The notes beneath the pieces are model-generated. The model did no database searches. It was given only the letters and a program-made list of their open reading frames with translations, and was not told the origin of the DNA. The position numbers and the translations under genes were made by a program. Shown here piece after piece: positions 25,233-35,698 of a DNA stretch of 64,000 bases (positions are counted from its first letter, which is position 1; each line of letters begins with the position of its first letter). This DNA is from Anaerolinea sp. (GTDB taxonomy: Bacteria; Chloroflexota; Anaerolineae; Anaerolineales; Villigracilaceae), in contig DYID01000019.1 of the NCBI GenBank assembly GCA_020723805.1, forward strand, positions 1 to 64,000. The letters run 5' to 3'.

Positions 25233-27026
25233 ATGCCCATCCGTTTGCTCGCCCCCGAGGTTGCCTCGCAAATCGCCGCCGGCGAGGTCATCGAGCGTCC
25301 CGCCTCGGTGGTGAAGGAGCTCGTGGAAAATGCGCTGGATGCCGGCGCGCGGACGATTGCGATTACCGTAGAGGAAGCGGGGAGGAAGTTGATTGAAGTG
25401 GCAGACGACGGCTGCGGCATCCCCTCGAACGAACTGGAACTTGCCGTCTCGCGTCATGCGACCTCGAAACTGGTCCGCTCCGAGGACCTTTTTTTCATCT
25501 CTACGCTGGGTTTCCGCGGGGAGGCGCTGGCTTCCATCGGTTCCGTCTCGCGGATGACGATCACCTCGCGGGTGAAGGATGCAAAGGAAGGCGCGCGCAT
25601 TCGCGTGGAAGGGGGAATGGCGGGGAAGCCGGCGAAAGTCGGCGCGACCGTTGGCACGATCGTTCGCGTGGAGGATTTGTTCTACAACGTGCCGGCGCGT
25701 TTGAAATTTTTGAAGACCGACGTAACCGAGCGGCGGGCAATTGACTCGCTGGTGACGCGTTATGCGCTGGCATACCCTGAGAAACGATTCAAACTCTCCG
25801 AAGGGAAAAACGTCATCCTGCAAACGGCGGGCGACGGCGACCGGCGCTCCATCCTTGCCGCGCTCTACGGCGTGGATGTGGCGAAGCAGATGCTCGAAGT
25901 GATGGCGGAGGAAGACGGTTACCGCCTGACAGGGTTTATCAGCCCCGCTTCGTTGACGCGCTCGAACCGCAAGGAAATCACCTTTTTTATCAACGGACGC
26001 TGGGTGCAGGAGGTTGCGCTCAACACGGCGCTGTTGCAGGCGTATCACACCCTGCTCATGGTGGGACGTTACCCGCTGACTGCCTTGTTCCTCGAAATGA
26101 ATCCGCGCGATGTGGATGTAAACGTACATCCTGCCAAAGCCGAAGTGCGCTTTCGAGACCAGGACCGCGTCTTCAGTTTTGTGCAAAGGTCGGTGCGGAA
26201 GGCGCTGCTGGCGTATTCGCCGGTGCCGAACGTGGCGCCCAGCCTGTGGGGGACGGTGAGGACGACGCCATCGGAGGAAAAGTCCTCCTCCGTTGGGCTG
26301 GATTGGGCGATTGGGCATGACGAGGGAGTGGGTGGCGGACGGTTGGGAGTTGGCAGTGATCAGTTATCAGTAAACAGTGATCAGTTATCAGTAAACAGTG
26401 AACAGGTCATCGTAAATCGTCAATCCGAAATCGTAAATCGCATTCCGTTGATGCGGCTCATCGGTCAGGTCGGCGGGACGTATCTGGTGGCGGAGGGACC
26501 CGACGGCTTGTATCTGATTGATCAGCACGCCGCGCACGAACGGGTTTTGTTCGAGAAGTTGATGGCGCAGCATGAGAGGCAGAACATCCCCTCGCAGGCG
26601 CTGTTGAACCCTGAAGTGGTGACCCTCCCGCCGGGTGCGGCGCAATTACTGCTTAACCAATTGCCCATTCTCAGCCGCTTTGGCTTCGACGTGGAAGAAT
26701 TTGGTCCAAATACTTTTCGAGTGAGGGCGATTCCGATTTTGTTTGCGGGCAGCGATCCCGCCTCGGCGCTGAGGGCGGTGGTGGAGGATTTCGAGGAGGA
26801 TGAAACGCCGCTGCAGAACGAGGTCGAGGCGAGACTCGCAGCGCGGGTCTGCAAGCGGATGGCGGTCAAGGGCGGGCAGACGCTTTCCAGCGAGGAGCAG
26901 CGCGCGCTGCTCAACGACCTCGAAACCTGCGAGTCGCCGCGAACCTGTCCGCATGGGCGTCCGACGATGATTCACCTTTCGGTGGATCTGTTGGAACGTC
27001 AGTTTGGGAGGCGCGGTGCACGCTGA
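25233..27026 (+). CDS. mutL: DNA mismatch repair protein MutL
   Basis: Couples mismatch recognition by MutS to strand incision. At 597 residues, the N-terminal GHKL ATPase shows the ELVENALDAGA, DDGCGI and TLGFRGEALASI motifs. The C-terminal domain starts near residue 405 (LMRLIGQVGGTYLVAEG) and holds the endonuclease metal motif DQHAAHERVLFE, with AARVCKRMA and CPHGRP later. It is thus a MutL with intrinsic nicking activity, as expected in bacteria without MutH. The inter-domain linker (about residues 345-405) contains a period-7 array (GSDQLSVNSDQLSVNSEQ). The downstream GGDEF gene overlaps its 3' end. Confidence 0.96.
   Translation: MPIRLLAPEVASQIAAGEVIERPASVVKELVENALDAGARTIAITVEEAGRKLIEVADDGCGIPSNELELAVSRHATSKLVRSEDLFFISTLGFRGEALASIGSVSRMTITSRVKDAKEGARIRVEGGMAGKPAKVGATVGTIVRVEDLFYNVPARLKFLKTDVTERRAIDSLVTRYALAYPEKRFKLSEGKNVILQTAGDGDRRSILAALYGVDVAKQMLEVMAEEDGYRLTGFISPASLTRSNRKEITFFINGRWVQEVALNTALLQAYHTLLMVGRYPLTALFLEMNPRDVDVNVHPAKAEVRFRDQDRVFSFVQRSVRKALLAYSPVPNVAPSLWGTVRTTPSEEKSSSVGLDWAIGHDEGVGGGRLGVGSDQLSVNSDQLSVNSEQVIVNRQSEIVNRIPLMRLIGQVGGTYLVAEGPDGLYLIDQHAAHERVLFEKLMAQHERQNIPSQALLNPEVVTLPPGAAQLLLNQLPILSRFGFDVEEFGPNTFRVRAIPILFAGSDPASALRAVVEDFEEDETPLQNEVEARLAARVCKRMAVKGGQTLSSEEQRALLNDLETCESPRTCPHGRPTMIHLSVDLLERQFGRRGAR
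26353..26442. repeat. period-7 array in the mutL linker
   Basis: Units of the CAGTGAT/CAGTTAT/CAGTAAA type followed by AATCGTA/AATCCGA units, in frame. Seven-residue periodicity (SDQLSVN) is visible in the protein. Confidence 0.85.
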
Positions 27027-27654
27027 AATGTCTCTATCTGGAAAGTATCGAAAACTTCTGGCGGATTTCCAGAAGTTGGAGAGCGAATACGAAAAGACCA
27101 AACGCACCCTGGAGATTCGGGAAATCGAGGTGCGGGCAATTCTGGCGCAGGCGCATGAACTCGCCAACACCGACGTGCTGACCTTCCTGCCGAACCGCCG
27201 CAAAATCATTTCCACTCTGCAGGAAGAGGTCATCCGCTCGAACCGTTACGACACGCCGCTGGCGGTGTCCATTCTCGATATTGATCATTTCAAGAAGGTA
27301 AACGACACCTACGGTCACACCGCCGGGGATCAGGTGCTGCGCAGCGTTGCCGCACGGCTGCGGACGCAAATCCGCCACCCCGATACCATCGGGCGTTACG
27401 GCGGGGAGGAGTTTTTGATCGTCCTGCCGAACAGCGAGTTGCAAGCCGCGGCGGAACAAGCCTCGCGCCTATGTCAGCAGGTTCGTACCCTCCGCATTGA
27501 TGTGAATGAACATATTGCGTCTGTGACCATCAGCATTGGAATTGCGCAATTTCGAGTCGGGCAGGAAACTTGGGAGGAACTGCTCCACCGCGCCGACTCG
27601 GCGCTCTATCAGGCAAAGGACAAGGGACGAGACCGCTGGGTGGCGGCGGAATAA
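27016..27654 (+). CDS. diguanylate cyclase (GGDEF domain) with coiled-coil N-terminus
   Basis: Makes cyclic di-GMP from two GTP. About 212 residues: an N-terminal coiled coil (LLADFQKLESEYEKTKRTLE) and then a complete GGDEF domain starting at NTDVLTFLPNRRK, with DIDHFKKVNDTYGH (metal and GTP binding) and active-site RYGGEEFLIVLP. No RxxD inhibitory-site motif precedes GGEEF. There is no membrane or sensory domain, so the coiled coil probably provides dimerisation or partner contact. The GTG at 27016 sits four bases after GGGAGG and overlaps the end of mutL; ATG 27028 is the alternative start. Confidence 0.9.
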   Translation: MHAEMSLSGKYRKLLADFQKLESEYEKTKRTLEIREIEVRAILAQAHELANTDVLTFLPNRRKIISTLQEEVIRSNRYDTPLAVSILDIDHFKKVNDTYGHTAGDQVLRSVAARLRTQIRHPDTIGRYGGEEFLIVLPNSELQAAAEQASRLCQQVRTLRIDVNEHIASVTISIGIAQFRVGQETWEELLHRADSALYQAKDKGRDRWVAAE

Positions 27655-30614: not shown

Positions 30615-30660
30615 GGCGTCCTTTGGTAGCAAAACGTACTGCCTTGCGGCAGTACGTGAG

Positions 30661-31045
30661 TGGAGATGGCGGGAATCGAACCCGCGTCCGAAAGATTCGA
30701 CCCTCGGAACTCTACGAGCGTAGCCGGATGAGGCTCGTCATCGCAGGGGTCTCACCCGGCAGGAACACCCTGCGACCAGCCGCTGGTCTTTCGCGCATGT
30801 AGCGGCGTCGTGCGCGGCACCCCGCCTTTGTTTCGCCCGACCCGTCACCCGGCGGGGATGGGTGCCGGCGGACGCAACATCATCTAGGGATGTTGACTGT
30901 CATGTTCCCGTCGCATTAAGCGGCGAGGGGCATGGCAGCGTAAGCAGTGCGGTTGGCACTTGATTTTTTGCGCTGAGTTTACGAGTTCGGCGCCTCTCGG
31001 CTCGCATTCCGGGACCAGCCTCTCCCGTCGAAGCCTGTCATCCCC
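30661..31045 (-). ncRNA. ssrA: transfer-messenger RNA (tmRNA)
   Basis: Rescues stalled ribosomes and tags the nascent protein. Read on the minus strand, the 5' end is GGGGATGACAGGCTTCGACG, the near-invariant tmRNA start. The 3' end is a T-arm and acceptor (GGGTTCGATTCCCGCC, then ATCTCCA). GGGGATG pairs with CATCTCC to form the tRNA-like acceptor. The CCA is not encoded. The tag frame at 30957-30916 reads ANRTAYAAMPLAA then TAA, which fits the usual start (AN or AK) and the LAA end. One-piece molecule of about 385 bases. Confidence 0.95.
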
Positions 31046-31099: not shown

Positions 31100-31128
31100 T
31101 TGTCTTGCCCTGATAGCGGCTTTATGCT
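31100..31128 (+). promoter_or_regulatory. sigma-70-like promoter of the receiver-ParA/Sir2/kinase operon
   Basis: TTGTCT (31100-31105) and TATGCT (31123-31128) are separated by 17 bases. The leader then carries AAGGA before the ATG at 31163. Divergent from the tmRNA promoter. Confidence 0.5.
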
Positions 31129-31162: not shown

Positions 31163-32338
31163 ATGGCTGACAAGATCCTCATTGTGGACGACGACCTCGA
31201 CACCCTGCGCCTGGTGGGGTTGATGCTTCAACGCCAGGGATACCAAATTAGCGCAGCGACCAACGGTCAGCAGGGCTTGGAAAAGGCGTTCGAAGAGGAC
31301 CCGGACCTGATTCTGCTCGATGTGATGATGCCCGACATAGACGGCTATGAAGTCACGCGCCGCCTGCGGCAGAACCCTGCCACAGCCGAGACGCCCATTC
31401 TGATGTTTACCGCCAAATCCCAATTGGACGATAAGGTTATTGGTTTTGAAGCCGGCGTGAACGATTACCTGACCAAACCCACCCATCCCTCCGAGTTGCA
31501 GGCGCGTGTGAAGACCCTGCTTGCCCGCGCCGGCGAGAAAAAGAAAAAAGCCGCCGCAGAAACCGCCGAAGCCGAAGAGGGACGCGGTTATGTGATTGGC
31601 GTGCTGGGCGCGCGCGGCGGACTGGGCATTACTACGCTCGCCGTCAACCTGGCGGCAGGACTGTTGACCAAGACGAAGAGCGAAGTCATCGTTGCCGAGA
31701 TGCTGCCCGGACAGGGGTCGCTGGCGCTGGAACTGGGCATCACCGCCACAAAGGGACTGGTGGACCTGCTCAGCCTGAGCCGCGTGAGCGACATCACCCG
31801 CGACAGAATCCGCGAGGCGCTCGTCCATCACGGTTCGGGGCTGGACCTGTTGCTTGCCTCTGACCGTCCAAGGGATATGCACCTCATCAGCCAGGTGGCG
31901 AATTACGAAGCGCTGGTGGCTGGTTTGAGCGGACTTGCCCGCTTTGTCGTGCTCGATTTAGGGGTGGGGATTCAGCCGTTTGCCACCAAGGTCCTGCCGA
32001 AGTGCAATGAAGTCCTCATCCTGCTCGAAGGCGTGCCCAACACCATTATCCACACCAAGGCGCTGATCGAAGACATCGCCGCGCTGGGCGTCAACAAGCG
32101 GAATATCAACGTGGTGCTGAACAACCGCATCCGTTCGGATACGCAATTGCCCTCCAGCATCGTGCAGAACAAACTCGACTACGAACTCATCGGCACGCTG
32201 ACGCCCGCGCCGGAAGTGTTCACGCAAGCCACACGGATGCAGACACCGGCAGTGCTTTGCCAGCCCGAGAGCCTGACGGCGCGTCAGATTGGCAAACTGG
32301 TGGATTTCATCGCAGAGAGAGAAGCACTGCCTCGATGA
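31163..32338 (+). CDS. response-regulator receiver fused to a CpaE/ParA-like ATPase domain
   Basis: A 391-residue protein. Residues 1-120 are a complete receiver: acidic pair VDDD at 9-11, phospho-acceptor Asp53 in LILLDVMMP, Thr83 and Lys105 in YLTKP. An Ala/Lys/Glu linker follows. From about residue 143 comes a ParA/MinD-like (CpaE/TadZ) domain with YVIGVLGARGGLGITTLAVNLA. The deviant Walker A lacks both usual Lys residues (RGGLGITT instead of KGGxGKT), so ATP hydrolysis is doubtful. This is the TadZ-like architecture that positions machinery at a cell site. The gene is joined by ATGA to sir2, and the downstream kinase may phosphorylate it. Confidence 0.85.
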   Translation: MADKILIVDDDLDTLRLVGLMLQRQGYQISAATNGQQGLEKAFEEDPDLILLDVMMPDIDGYEVTRRLRQNPATAETPILMFTAKSQLDDKVIGFEAGVNDYLTKPTHPSELQARVKTLLARAGEKKKKAAAETAEAEEGRGYVIGVLGARGGLGITTLAVNLAAGLLTKTKSEVIVAEMLPGQGSLALELGITATKGLVDLLSLSRVSDITRDRIREALVHHGSGLDLLLASDRPRDMHLISQVANYEALVAGLSGLARFVVLDLGVGIQPFATKVLPKCNEVLILLEGVPNTIIHTKALIEDIAALGVNKRNINVVLNNRIRSDTQLPSSIVQNKLDYELIGTLTPAPEVFTQATRMQTPAVLCQPESLTARQIGKLVDFIAEREALPR

Positions 32339-33111
32339 AGCCTGCCCCCCGCCTCACCGGAACTGCGCTTGAAGACGCGGCGGCATTGTTCCGCGGCGCC
32401 CGGCACGCAGTCGTGTTGACCGGGGCGGGCATCTCCACACCATCGGGCATTCCCGACTTCCGTTCGGAGGGGACAGGTTTATGGTCACGCGATGAACCGA
32501 TGGAGGTCGCATCGCTCAGCACCTTCCGCACGCATCCCGAACGTTTCTTTCAATGGTTTCGTCCGCTGGCGGGGCAAATCTTCAACGCCCAGCCGAACGC
32601 CGCACACCTGGCGCTTGCCCAACTAGAACAGGCAGGCATGACTCATGCAATCATCACCCAAAACATTGACATGCTGCATCAAAAGGCTGGCTCGCGGCAT
32701 GTCATCGAAATGCACGGCACGTTGCAAACCCTGTCCTGCACCAGTTGTTACCGCAAGTTCGAGTCCGCCAGCTTTTTGAGTCAGTTTATCGAAGCAGGAA
32801 CGCTTCCCATCTGCACGCAGTGCGGCGGCATCCTCAAACCAGATGTGATTTTGTTCGGGGAGCAGTTGCCGCAGTCGGCATGGTTCGAAGCGCAAAAAGA
32901 AGCGCGCCGCTGTGACCTGATGGTGGTCGCCGGCTCGTCGCTGGAGGTCCTGCCGGTGGCGGGACTTCCCATGCAGGCGGTGGACCGCGGCGCGCATCTG
33001 GTGGTCATCAATAACTCGCCCACCTACATCAACGTCCGAGCCGATGTCGTCATCATGGACGATGTCGCCTCGATCATTCCTGAGATTGCAAAGCGAGCGC
33101 TCCATGGCTGA
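32335..33111 (+). CDS. NAD-dependent protein deacylase, Sir2 family
   Basis: Removes acyl groups from lysine using NAD. A 258-residue sirtuin with LTGAGISTPSGIPDFRS (NAD binding), TQNIDMLHQKAGS, catalytic His127 in EMHGTLQTLSC, a zinc ribbon CTSC...CTQCGG, then LKPDVILFGEQLP and VAGSSLEVLPVAGLP. All key residues are present. The ATG at 32335 overlaps the preceding stop (ATGA), and the start of the kinase gene overlaps its 3' end by eight bases, so the three are one translationally coupled operon. A regulatory link between deacylation and the two-component pair is inferred from this arrangement only. Confidence 0.93.
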   Translation: MKPAPRLTGTALEDAAALFRGARHAVVLTGAGISTPSGIPDFRSEGTGLWSRDEPMEVASLSTFRTHPERFFQWFRPLAGQIFNAQPNAAHLALAQLEQAGMTHAIITQNIDMLHQKAGSRHVIEMHGTLQTLSCTSCYRKFESASFLSQFIEAGTLPICTQCGGILKPDVILFGEQLPQSAWFEAQKEARRCDLMVVAGSSLEVLPVAGLPMQAVDRGAHLVVINNSPTYINVRADVVIMDDVASIIPEIAKRALHG

Positions 33112-34306
33112 GATTAAAACCCGAACCCTCGATAGTTACCTGCGTCTGATCGAAATCGCCCGCGACCTCGCCTCGACCCTCGATCTGGACACACTGCTCA
33201 ACGACATTGTCCGCGCTTCCGCCGACATTACCCACGCCGAAGCCGCCTCCATCCTGCTCTATGACGACACGGCGCGTCAACTCTACTTTCAGGTTGCCAC
33301 CAACATTGACGAACCTACCATGCGCGGGCTCATCGTCCCGCTCGACAAGAGCATCGCCGGCTGGATCGTCACCAACCGCCAGCCCGTGCGCATTGACGAC
33401 GTACACAAGGACAAACGCTTCTTCAGCGACATCGAGCAAACGGTGGGCTACGCCACCCGTTCCCTGCTGGGCATCCCGCTGATTACCAAGAACAAAGTGG
33501 TGGGCGTGCTGGAAGTCATCAACAAAAAGCGCGGGCGCTTCACCGACCCGGATGAATCCATGCTCACCGTGTTGGGAGCGCAGGCGGCGGTTGCCATCGA
33601 GAACGCGCGTCTGTTCCAGCAATCCGACCTGATTGCCGAATTCGTCCATGAACTGCGCACGCCGCTGGCATCGCTCAGTACCGCCACTTACCTGCTGCTC
33701 CGCCCCGAAATGTCGCGCGAACAGCGCGACCAGATCGTCAATAACATTCACAACGAGACCCTGCGGCTGAACGCCCTGGCATCCTCCTTCCTCGACCTGG
33801 CGCGGCTCGAATCGGGGCGCGTACAGTTCCGCAAGACGCGCTTCAGTTCGGCGGACCTGATCTACGAAGTGCGCGATGTGATGATGACCAAGGCGCAGGA
33901 GATGAACATCCAAATCCGCGTGGATGTGCCTTCCGACATGCCGCTGATGGAAGCCGACCGCGACAAAATCAAGCAAGTGCTCCTCAACCTGTTGAGCAAC
34001 GCCATCAAATACAACCGTCCGAACGGTTCCGTCATCATCACCGGCAACTTCACCGATACGGAAATTTCCGTCACCGTGCAAGATACCGGCATGGGCATCC
34101 CGGAAGATTCGCTCCCGCACCTCTTCCAAAAGTTCTACCGCGTACGCGAACACGAAGGCAAAGCCTCCGGCACCGGGCTGGGTCTTTCCATCTGCAAGCA
34201 AATCATTCAGGGACACAACGGGCGCATCGAGGTCAAGAGCAAAGTGGGGGTTGGCACTGCCTTCACCGTTTACCTGCCGCGCGCGCCCCGTCTTCCGCGC
34301 AGTTAG
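33104..34306 (+). CDS. soluble GAF-domain sensor histidine kinase
   Basis: A 400-residue cytoplasmic kinase without membrane segments. A GAF domain (about 10-165) is followed directly by the H-box FVHELRTPLASLS (His about residue 182). The HATPase domain has LNLLSNAIKYNRPNG (N box), VQDTGMGIPEDSLPHLFQKFYRV (G1/F) and GTGLGLSICKQI (G2). It lacks its own receiver, so its natural partner is probably the receiver-ParA protein two genes upstream. The ATG at 33104 overlaps the sir2 stop. The GAF ligand cannot be predicted. Confidence 0.92.
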   Translation: MAEIKTRTLDSYLRLIEIARDLASTLDLDTLLNDIVRASADITHAEAASILLYDDTARQLYFQVATNIDEPTMRGLIVPLDKSIAGWIVTNRQPVRIDDVHKDKRFFSDIEQTVGYATRSLLGIPLITKNKVVGVLEVINKKRGRFTDPDESMLTVLGAQAAVAIENARLFQQSDLIAEFVHELRTPLASLSTATYLLLRPEMSREQRDQIVNNIHNETLRLNALASSFLDLARLESGRVQFRKTRFSSADLIYEVRDVMMTKAQEMNIQIRVDVPSDMPLMEADRDKIKQVLLNLLSNAIKYNRPNGSVIITGNFTDTEISVTVQDTGMGIPEDSLPHLFQKFYRVREHEGKASGTGLGLSICKQIIQGHNGRIEVKSKVGVGTAFTVYLPRAPRLPRS

Positions 34307-34369: not shown

Positions 34370-35698
34370 ATGAACCGCCGTTTTAACCGTGTTTGGATTC
34401 TTCCGCTTGCCCTCGTGCTGGGCGTCATACTCTTCTATCTGCCGCCCGTCTATTCGCGCGTCATGCCGCGCATCGAAGCCCTGCAATCCGGCATCAAATA
34501 TTGGATCAAACCGCCCGAGGAGGCGGTCTTTCAACCCTCGGGTCAAGCCGAACCTGCCGCAGACTCTGCGACTCAAACGCCTCTTCCCACCCTCACAGCG
34601 ACTCTCACCCCCACAGCGGGTCCCACGCCCTCGCCGACGGTCACCCCTACGCCTCTGCCTGCTTCAGTTAACCTGACCGGCTTCCGCTACGAAGACCAAA
34701 GGAATCGCTGGAACTATTGCGGTCCCGCCAACCTGAGCATGGCGCTCAACTACCTCGGCTGGGATGGCAACCGCGATACCGTTGCCAAAGCCATCAAGCC
34801 CGGCGTGCAGGACCCCAAACTGGACTTCATTCAACAGGGGCGCAGTGACGTCAACGTCATGCCGTATGAGATGGTGGACTTCGTCAACGACCAGACCGAA
34901 TTCCGCGCTCTCTACCGCCTGGGCGGCGATATCGAACTGGCAAAGCGGCTGCTTGCCGCCGGCTTTCCCTTCATTGCTGAAAAGGGCTATTACGAGAAAG
35001 ACTACACCGGCAAAGTCGCCTGGCTGGGACATTATCAGTTCGTGACCGGCTACGATGACGCCCGCGGCGAATTGATCGTTCAAGACACTTGGAACGACGG
35101 TCCCAACTTCCGTATCAAATACGAAGCGTTCATGGCGCCGGAAGCCTGGCTCTCCTTCGACAACCTGTTCATCGTGGTCTATAAGCCCGAGCGCGAGAGC
35201 GAGTTGATGCAGGTCCTCGGTCCGTATGCCGACCCGATGCAGGCGGCGCAAACCGCGCTCACCCACGCGGAAGAATATATCCTCACCACCAGCGGCATCG
35301 AACAATTCTTCGCTTGGTTCGCCAAAGGGACCAGTCATGTCGCCCTCCAGCAATACGCCGACGCCGCCGCTGCCTACGACCGCGCATTTGCCATCTACAA
35401 CGACCTCGGCAAGGACGATGTCCAGCGTCCCTACCGCATGATGTGGTATCAGACCGGTCCCTACTGGGCGTACTTTTACAGCGGGCGATACCAGGATGTC
35501 ATCAGCCTTGCGGATGTGACCCTCACGGAGACCATCGCCAAGCCCACCATCGAAGAGAGCATCTACTGGCGCGGACGCGCCAAGTACATGATTGGCGACA
35601 CGCCCGGCGCCATCGCCGACTACCGCGAAGCGCTTCGCCTGCACCCCAACTGGGCGCCCGCCATTCAGGCATTGCAGGACTTGGGCATACAACCGTAA
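34370..35698 (+). CDS. membrane-anchored C39-like cysteine peptidase with TPR repeats
   Basis: A 442-residue protein. One N-terminal helix (WILPLALVLGVILFYLP) anchors it outside. A Thr/Pro-rich linker covers about residues 60-100. Then a papain-like C39 domain follows: catalytic Cys in RWNYCGPANLSMALNYLG, His in WLGHYQFVTGYDD and a following Asp/Asn in IVQDTWND. The C-terminal third (about 310-442) contains helical repeats ending in AIADYREALRLHPNWAPA, a TPR motif. C39-like domains of this kind cleave peptides or act as inactive binders; the catalytic pair is present. No transporter domain is fused. Confidence 0.8.
   Translation: MNRRFNRVWILPLALVLGVILFYLPPVYSRVMPRIEALQSGIKYWIKPPEEAVFQPSGQAEPAADSATQTPLPTLTATLTPTAGPTPSPTVTPTPLPASVNLTGFRYEDQRNRWNYCGPANLSMALNYLGWDGNRDTVAKAIKPGVQDPKLDFIQQGRSDVNVMPYEMVDFVNDQTEFRALYRLGGDIELAKRLLAAGFPFIAEKGYYEKDYTGKVAWLGHYQFVTGYDDARGELIVQDTWNDGPNFRIKYEAFMAPEAWLSFDNLFIVVYKPERESELMQVLGPYADPMQAAQTALTHAEEYILTTSGIEQFFAWFAKGTSHVALQQYADAAAAYDRAFAIYNDLGKDDVQRPYRMMWYQTGPYWAYFYSGRYQDVISLADVTLTETIAKPTIEESIYWRGRAKYMIGDTPGAIADYREALRLHPNWAPAIQALQDLGIQP

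Follow-up and report, generated by a model that had tools for sequence, protein, structure and literature searches.

A conserved receiver-sirtuin-kinase gene cluster in Anaerolineales, possibly the remnant of an older cluster with endonuclease V

Why should a sirtuin gene stand between the gene of a receiver protein and that of its probable histidine kinase? The question is raised by three overlapping genes of Anaerolinea sp., order Anaerolineales, in a stretch of 64,000 nucleotides (assembly GCA_020723805.1, contig DYID01000019.1, positions 1 to 64,000) that is called the window below. Comparison with relatives shows that the order of these genes is widely kept and that the sirtuin can nonetheless be missing from between the other two. 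It may be an old companion of the kinase-receiver pair, left over from a cluster that once also held endonuclease V.

The genes lie on the forward strand and encode products of 391, 258 and 400 amino acids. Their coordinates, as well as the ATGA shared by the receiver and Sir2 genes and the overlap of 8 nucleotides (ATGGCTGA) between the Sir2 and kinase genes, had been given in a prediction made from this DNA alone (hereafter the original prediction) and were confirmed in the sequence. The features of the operon are the following.

31163-32338, + strand: protein with a receiver (REC) domain and a MinD/ParA fold, CpaE/TadZ-like, 391 amino acids (Pfam, profile and structure searches)
31175-31513, + strand: REC domain, residues 5-117 (Pfam PF00072, E 2.7e-31)
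31319-31321, + strand: Asp53, phosphoacceptor position, Asp in 32/32 aligned orthologues
31583-32335, + strand: MinD/ParA-fold domain, residues 141-391 (profile search, model and fold comparison)
31607-31636, + strand: deviant Walker A motif GARGGLGITT, with V, T, A or I at the position of the P-loop lysine in 32/32 (alignment)
32335-33111, + strand: predicted NAD-dependent protein deacylase of the Sir2 family, 258 amino acids (Pfam SIR2, E 1.5e-54)
32713-32715, + strand: His127, invariant in 22/22 aligned relatives
32737-32823, + strand: cysteines C135, C138, C160 and C163, invariant in 22/22
33104-34306, + strand: GAF-HisKA-HATPase_c histidine kinase, 400 amino acids (Pfam)
33179-33601, + strand: GAF sensor domain, residues 26-166 (Pfam)
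33647-33649, + strand: phosphoacceptor His182, invariant in 27/27

Each of the three proteins is of a known kind, and the sirtuin is probably made together with the pair through translational coupling. The ratio of nonsynonymous to synonymous substitution rates stays under 0.1 in each gene when compared with genome G014 (0.060, 0.087 and 0.022) and lies between 0.07 and 0.23 in comparisons with G011 and G056.

The window's genome and 120 relatives of the order were searched with each operon protein and adjacency was judged from coordinates, some of the absences presumably being due to contig ends or incomplete genomes. Receiver, sirtuin and kinase genes are contiguous in 69 of these 121 genomes (17 of the 18 genus members, 56 of the 73 family members and 13 of the 48 genomes from other families of the order), which bears out the conservation of gene order proposed as a check in the original prediction. 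They are packed on the same strand with gaps mostly below 60 nucleotides, and with overlaps in the genus. Nevertheless, receiver and kinase genes adjoin without a sirtuin between them in 12 genomes, six of which (G018, G045, G067, G073, G100 and G107) gave no sirtuin match at E 1e-10, the other six harboring only lower-scoring sirtuins elsewhere. The sirtuin orthologue occurs without receiver or kinase in five genomes, the receiver alone in eight, the kinase alone in three, sirtuin and kinase without the receiver in two and none of the three in ten, the remaining 12 presenting partial sets or genes split over several places. The interpretation in the original prediction thus stands only in part: the operon is conserved, but the two observations named there in advance as refuting, namely sirtuins in other contexts and kinase-receiver pairs lacking the sirtuin in relatives, are largely what was found. 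Endonuclease V (EndoV) is encoded in 12 of the 121 genomes and never beside the operon, being located on another contig in 11 cases and about 89 kb away on the same contig in one. A scan of contigs with the full receiver protein gave, among the 80 loci listed, near full-length receiver matches of at least 40% identity at L149, L150 and L151, the others listed being mostly unrelated ordinary receivers and the named operon relatives being under-sampled; a scan with the ParA half alone yielded no usable pattern. On L151, a contig of Chloroflexota, the three genes are intact and preceded by a divergent TilS-like gene, identified as such by cluster likeness.

A sample of 150 genomes from the class Anaerolineae (143 outside the order and seven from the family) places these genes in a broader context. 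Orthologues were called at thresholds of 1e-60 for the sirtuin, 1e-57 for the receiver protein and 1e-80 for the kinase, adjacency being limited to 400 bases and scored for one gene order and strand only. Outside the order, 95 genomes have a sirtuin of this group, 82 EndoV, 40 the receiver protein and 23 the kinase; no kinase orthologue was detected in 77 of the 95 sirtuin genomes, and 56 of the 143 genomes encode the sirtuin without receiver or kinase orthologues at the thresholds used. The gene that intervenes between receiver and sirtuin is EndoV (PF04493, confirmed with Pfam in all five cases tested), which is also the commonest tested neighbour of the sirtuin in these genomes outside the order. 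Where both genes of a pair are present, EndoV is directly followed by the sirtuin in 29 of 65 genomes and the receiver by EndoV in 18 of 35, to be compared with 9 of 18 for sirtuin followed by kinase, 9 of 34 for receiver followed directly by sirtuin and 4 of 18 for receiver followed directly by kinase. The full run of receiver, EndoV, sirtuin and kinase is present in two class genomes (G126 and G129), and in 18 class genomes with neither receiver nor kinase detected the sirtuin directly follows EndoV. Similarly, among 161 genomes sampled from the phylum, the sirtuin (1e-60) occurs in four outside the class, two of which (G265 and G277, of one family) carry EndoV 58 and 76 bases before it.

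The loci at which EndoV was seen directly before the sirtuin include L229 to L234, L239, L241 and L248. At L244 and L247, both in class genomes, the sirtuin adjoins a gene for a CDP-alcohol phosphatidyltransferase and a large gene, the latter encoding FG-GAP and BACON domains at L244, where it was tested. The more surprising feature is the linkage of the sirtuin with EndoV, which at all nine EndoV-sirtuin loci checked was met outside the neighbourhood of mutL and tilS. A search of the literature, in which most subscription journals were not covered, brought up neither a description of this operon nor one of a pairing of sirtuin and EndoV; the passages seen of one phage review matching both endonuclease V and sirtuin do not link the two.

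The history of the sirtuin was studied with a tree of 53 sequences rooted on the second sirtuin of the same genome. The root is unsure; the branch of this outgroup measures 3.8 changes per column, the median being 0.3. In this tree, 31 of the 32 sirtuins of the order form one group, with support that is not strong (84/86). A tree of 56 receiver proteins was built by a quick method from rows chosen to include cases without sirtuin and receivers standing alone; the state in which no sirtuin lies beside the receiver requires nine parsimony changes, five of them forced by well-supported branches. These nine changes count events and not frequency, and losses are their simplest reading. On several branches the receiver, in many cases together with the kinase, persists where no sirtuin adjoins it.

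From these gene orders we infer an old class cluster, largely inherited vertically, in which a receiver-ParA protein was followed by EndoV, the sirtuin and the GAF kinase. The window would represent the Anaerolineales form of this cluster, from which EndoV was lost, other lines having lost different members; with such an ancestral four-gene cluster and its losses, the sirtuin would be a long-standing companion of the kinase-receiver pair that can be separated from it. Taken as a whole, an ancestral cluster, its remnant without EndoV in the window, a cytosolic kinase-scaffold pair and a separable sirtuin form in our opinion the best explanation, one that we hold with confidence barely above even. 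Several observations weigh against it. The sirtuin often keeps its place beside the receiver or the kinase, and the ancestral order is deduced from two genomes with the full run and many with part of it, a single order and strand having been scored. One sirtuin of the order (L140) falls among those of the class, and the extra sirtuins of G025 and G047 (L147 and L148) fall inside the spread of the tree. Moreover, in 13 rows (the window and the 12 of 25 loci containing all the genes), distances between receiver, sirtuin and kinase proteins correlate beyond those of MutL, with partial correlations of 0.33 for receiver and sirtuin, 0.49 for receiver and kinase and 0.65 for sirtuin and kinase (permutation p of 0.005, 0.0005 and 0.0015, respectively). 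This residual correlation could reflect a closer functional tie, or only the shared inheritance of one block.

It was also considered that the grouping is a neutral neighbourhood whose order decays slowly, shared function being limited to the kinase and the receiver. Losses of members do look independent, and in the order the cluster lies beside housekeeping genes, mutL being present in 22 and tilS in 9 of 40 loci, with a HAD gene and an S41 peptidase gene recurring nearby. Such a history nevertheless appears rather unlikely in view of the tight same-strand packing and of the 18 class genomes mentioned above in which EndoV and the sirtuin remain paired, and pairs of the cluster are also met away from these genes: among 20 class loci mutL is found in two and tilS in none, and neither was found at any of nine EndoV-sirtuin loci within the stretch examined, some stretches being as short as 5-13 kb.

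The receiver protein was aligned with 32 relatives picked for spread. The signature residues of the REC domain, including the Asp and the conserved Lys and Thr, are canonical and invariant in these relatives, and Asp53, which the original prediction had singled out, is indeed at the phosphoacceptor position. The C-terminal half matched no ParA model of Pfam at E 0.001, but a profile of the 32 relatives matches ParA/MinD structures, with 3ea0 as best match (E 1.1e-18) and 3fkq at E 0.0019. An AlphaFold2 model made from five sequences (mean pLDDT 86, pTM 0.64) has a second half that superposes on 3ea0 at 2.5 A across 239 residues (Z 28.5) and on MinD of P. furiosus with Z 28.2. The structure 3fkq, entitled as a two-domain protein of E. 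rectale and which we take to be that of TadZ, ranked fifth in a full-length Foldseek search, with a whole-chain root mean square deviation of 12 A and a TM score of 0.44; given this poor value, the two domains are alike while a likeness in their relative placement is not established.

Could the protein then be a genuine CpaE/TadZ that acts at a distance to position the Tad-type pilus machine of its genome, the operon being a detached part of a tad system? The architecture, a REC domain followed by a ParA domain with a deviant Walker A, would fit. Genes for T2SSE-family ATPases above the cut-off occur at three places in the genome, all on contigs other than that of the window, and two of them adjoin REC-ParA genes (L257 and L258) whose CpaE-like products are about 24% identical to the window protein over the chain; a third paralogue (L132, contig C48) is about 30% identical. 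Asp53 is kept and the P-loop lysine absent in all three, features in which the window protein resembles them. The C-terminus is longer in L132 and not clearly so in L257 and L258, whose C-terminal length is similar. A C-terminal amphipathic helix is ascribed to Caulobacter CpaE in a passage of one paper (PMC13170226); the modelled window chain ends about where the MinD core ends. Kinase-linked CpaE-like proteins recur, since L257 is accompanied by GAF kinase and receiver genes. In detail, L257 (7378-12493, - strand) carries on one strand a GAF histidine kinase, an OmpR-type regulator, a REC-ParA (CpaE-like) protein and a T2SSE ATPase, and L258 (4504-9240, + strand), a probable Tad-type locus, has consecutive REC-ParA (CpaE-like), T2SSE ATPase and T2SSF-type genes. 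However, this genome already possesses the CpaF-linked CpaE-like proteins just described, at 24% identity, and a search at E 1e-6 of the window and of 60 loci of relatives (40 of the order and 20 of the class; a receiver gene is lacking in several) detected no relative of the CpaF, CpaB-position, T2SSF and following open reading frames of L258 or of the CpaF of L257. A remote role in Tad positioning is thus improbable, and of the TadZ-type localisation system put forward in the original prediction the fold and the motifs stand, without the Tad gene neighbours.

As for the kinase, its H box, N and G boxes and ATPase domain are present, the boxes being invariant in 27 of 27 aligned relatives, and no membrane domain is among its Pfam matches. 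It is probably the cognate kinase of the receiver protein. Under the explanation that we prefer, kinase and receiver would form a cytosolic two-component pair, in which we infer that a ligand or redox cue at the GAF domain would lead to autophosphorylation at His182 and transfer of the phosphate to Asp53. Phosphorylation of the receiver may then alter the self-association of the MinD-like domain, which, being devoid of the P-loop lysine, would serve as a nucleotide-dependent scaffold with weak or no hydrolysis and would position a partner or sequester it.

The sirtuin would be an active NAD-dependent deacylase with substrates mainly outside this pair. His127, presumably catalytic as in the Sir2 family, the four cysteines, which we take to bind zinc, and the QNID motif do not vary among the 22 relatives aligned. 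The protein scores 285.9 bits against NCBIfam models, above the cut-off of 243 of subfamily NF001753 and below that of 320 of the CobB equivalog NF040867. Its best relatives of solved structure are 1ma3 (E 9.7e-66) and 1yc5 (E 4.4e-53), in our understanding Sir2-Af2 of A. fulgidus and Sir2 of T. maritima. At the presumed place of the Tyr/Arg pair of SIRT5-type desuccinylases, F and L are read by eye in QWFRPL. The second sirtuin of the genome lies on another contig and is 36% identical to that of the operon.

The sirtuin might instead deacylate lysines of the kinase or of the receiver protein (Lys105 of REC, those in the lysine-rich linker or those on the ParA face), so that NAD status would gate the phospho-signal, an elaboration of the coupling to NAD status or deacylation suggested in the original prediction. 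Lys105 is presumably the general lysine of receivers and its conservation is therefore not specific to this idea; the lysine-rich linker of the window shows no conservation among the 32 relatives aligned. The tight gene overlap, the order kept in 69 of 121 genomes and the residual co-variation of protein distances are in favor of such a role, as is the acetylation of the response regulator PhoP, reported in two papers to be reversed by CobB (PMC4778762, PMC8603916). It is nonetheless quite improbable in the face of the 12 receiver-kinase pairs without an interposed sirtuin, six of them from genomes without a sirtuin match, and no finding made here points specifically to such action on receiver or kinase. 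A class-wide module in which the cytosolic kinase and the phosphorylatable MinD-like scaffold set the place and time of action of EndoV and the sirtuin, linking redox or NAD state to the repair of deaminated (inosine-bearing) nucleic acids, with a window version lacking EndoV, is in our view highly improbable.

The surroundings of the operon include two further features.

31100-31128, + strand: weak possible promoter TTGTCT-17-TATGCT, 8/12 matches, found by eye and under the scan threshold
30658-31045, - strand: tmRNA gene, divergent neighbour just upstream and outside the operon (ARAGORN)

A scan for sigma-70 consensus promoters found none in the sense direction upstream of the operon; the single promoter attributed to the three genes was thus not borne out and is an assumption. 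The tmRNA tag called by ARAGORN, ARKTSGWSQGVPAG, looks wrong, and a normal tag ending in LAA, (S)ANRTAYAAMPLAA-stop, is read by eye at the expected place. Beyond the tmRNA lie a short unidentified gene and dnaK, and farther out mutL and a GGDEF gene (27004-27654, + strand) that follows mutL and overlaps its 3' end if a TTG start is used; in relatives too, a gene of the GGDEF cluster adjoins mutL. On the other side, a gene for a C39 peptidase/TPR protein (34370-35698) was rejected as a fourth member, its cluster of three members being on the opposite side of the operon in both relatives having it. The long antisense open reading frames met in this comparison are artefacts of the simple gene caller.

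If the preferred explanation of an ancestral cluster with a cytosolic kinase-scaffold pair is correct, a response regulator with an output of the MinD/ParA scaffold type, its own kinase and no detected pilus locus would widen the roles of two-component systems. The recurrent grouping of EndoV, sirtuin and receiver in Anaerolineae is a concrete, testable lead to a bacterial connection of nucleic-acid repair with the deacylation of proteins. Should inheritance alone account for the neighbourhood, the operon would still be a clear example of conservation in spite of each member being dispensable, and would call for caution in the use of guilt by association.

Compared with known systems, the operon shares with two-component systems based on GAF-HisKA kinases the presence of kinase boxes and receiver residues within one operon, whereas the usual output, a DNA-binding or enzymatic domain, is replaced by a MinD-like domain and a sirtuin gene stands between the kinase and receiver genes. 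Like CpaE/TadZ, the receiver protein has a REC domain followed by a MinD/ParA fold with a deviant Walker A, a motif that in TadZ is described, in the passages available, as atypical and still binding ATP (PMC6668835) and again as atypical (PMC13170226). Unlike them, it has no tad genes detected alongside and sits with its own kinase and sirtuin. Its receiver residues are canonical, whereas the receiver of E. rectale TadZ is said to be atypical in a passage of one of these papers (PMC13170226); this is a weak discriminator, because Asp53 is also present in the CpaF-linked CpaE-like proteins of the genome. The control of response regulators such as PhoP by CobB similarly unites a sirtuin and a two-component system in one regulatory theme; according to the passages seen, the substrate is there reported by experiment, whereas the link in the window is one of gene neighbourhood. 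Finally, the catalytic and zinc residues of archaeal and bacterial Sir2 deacylases are kept in the sirtuin, which differs from them in being embedded in this operon.

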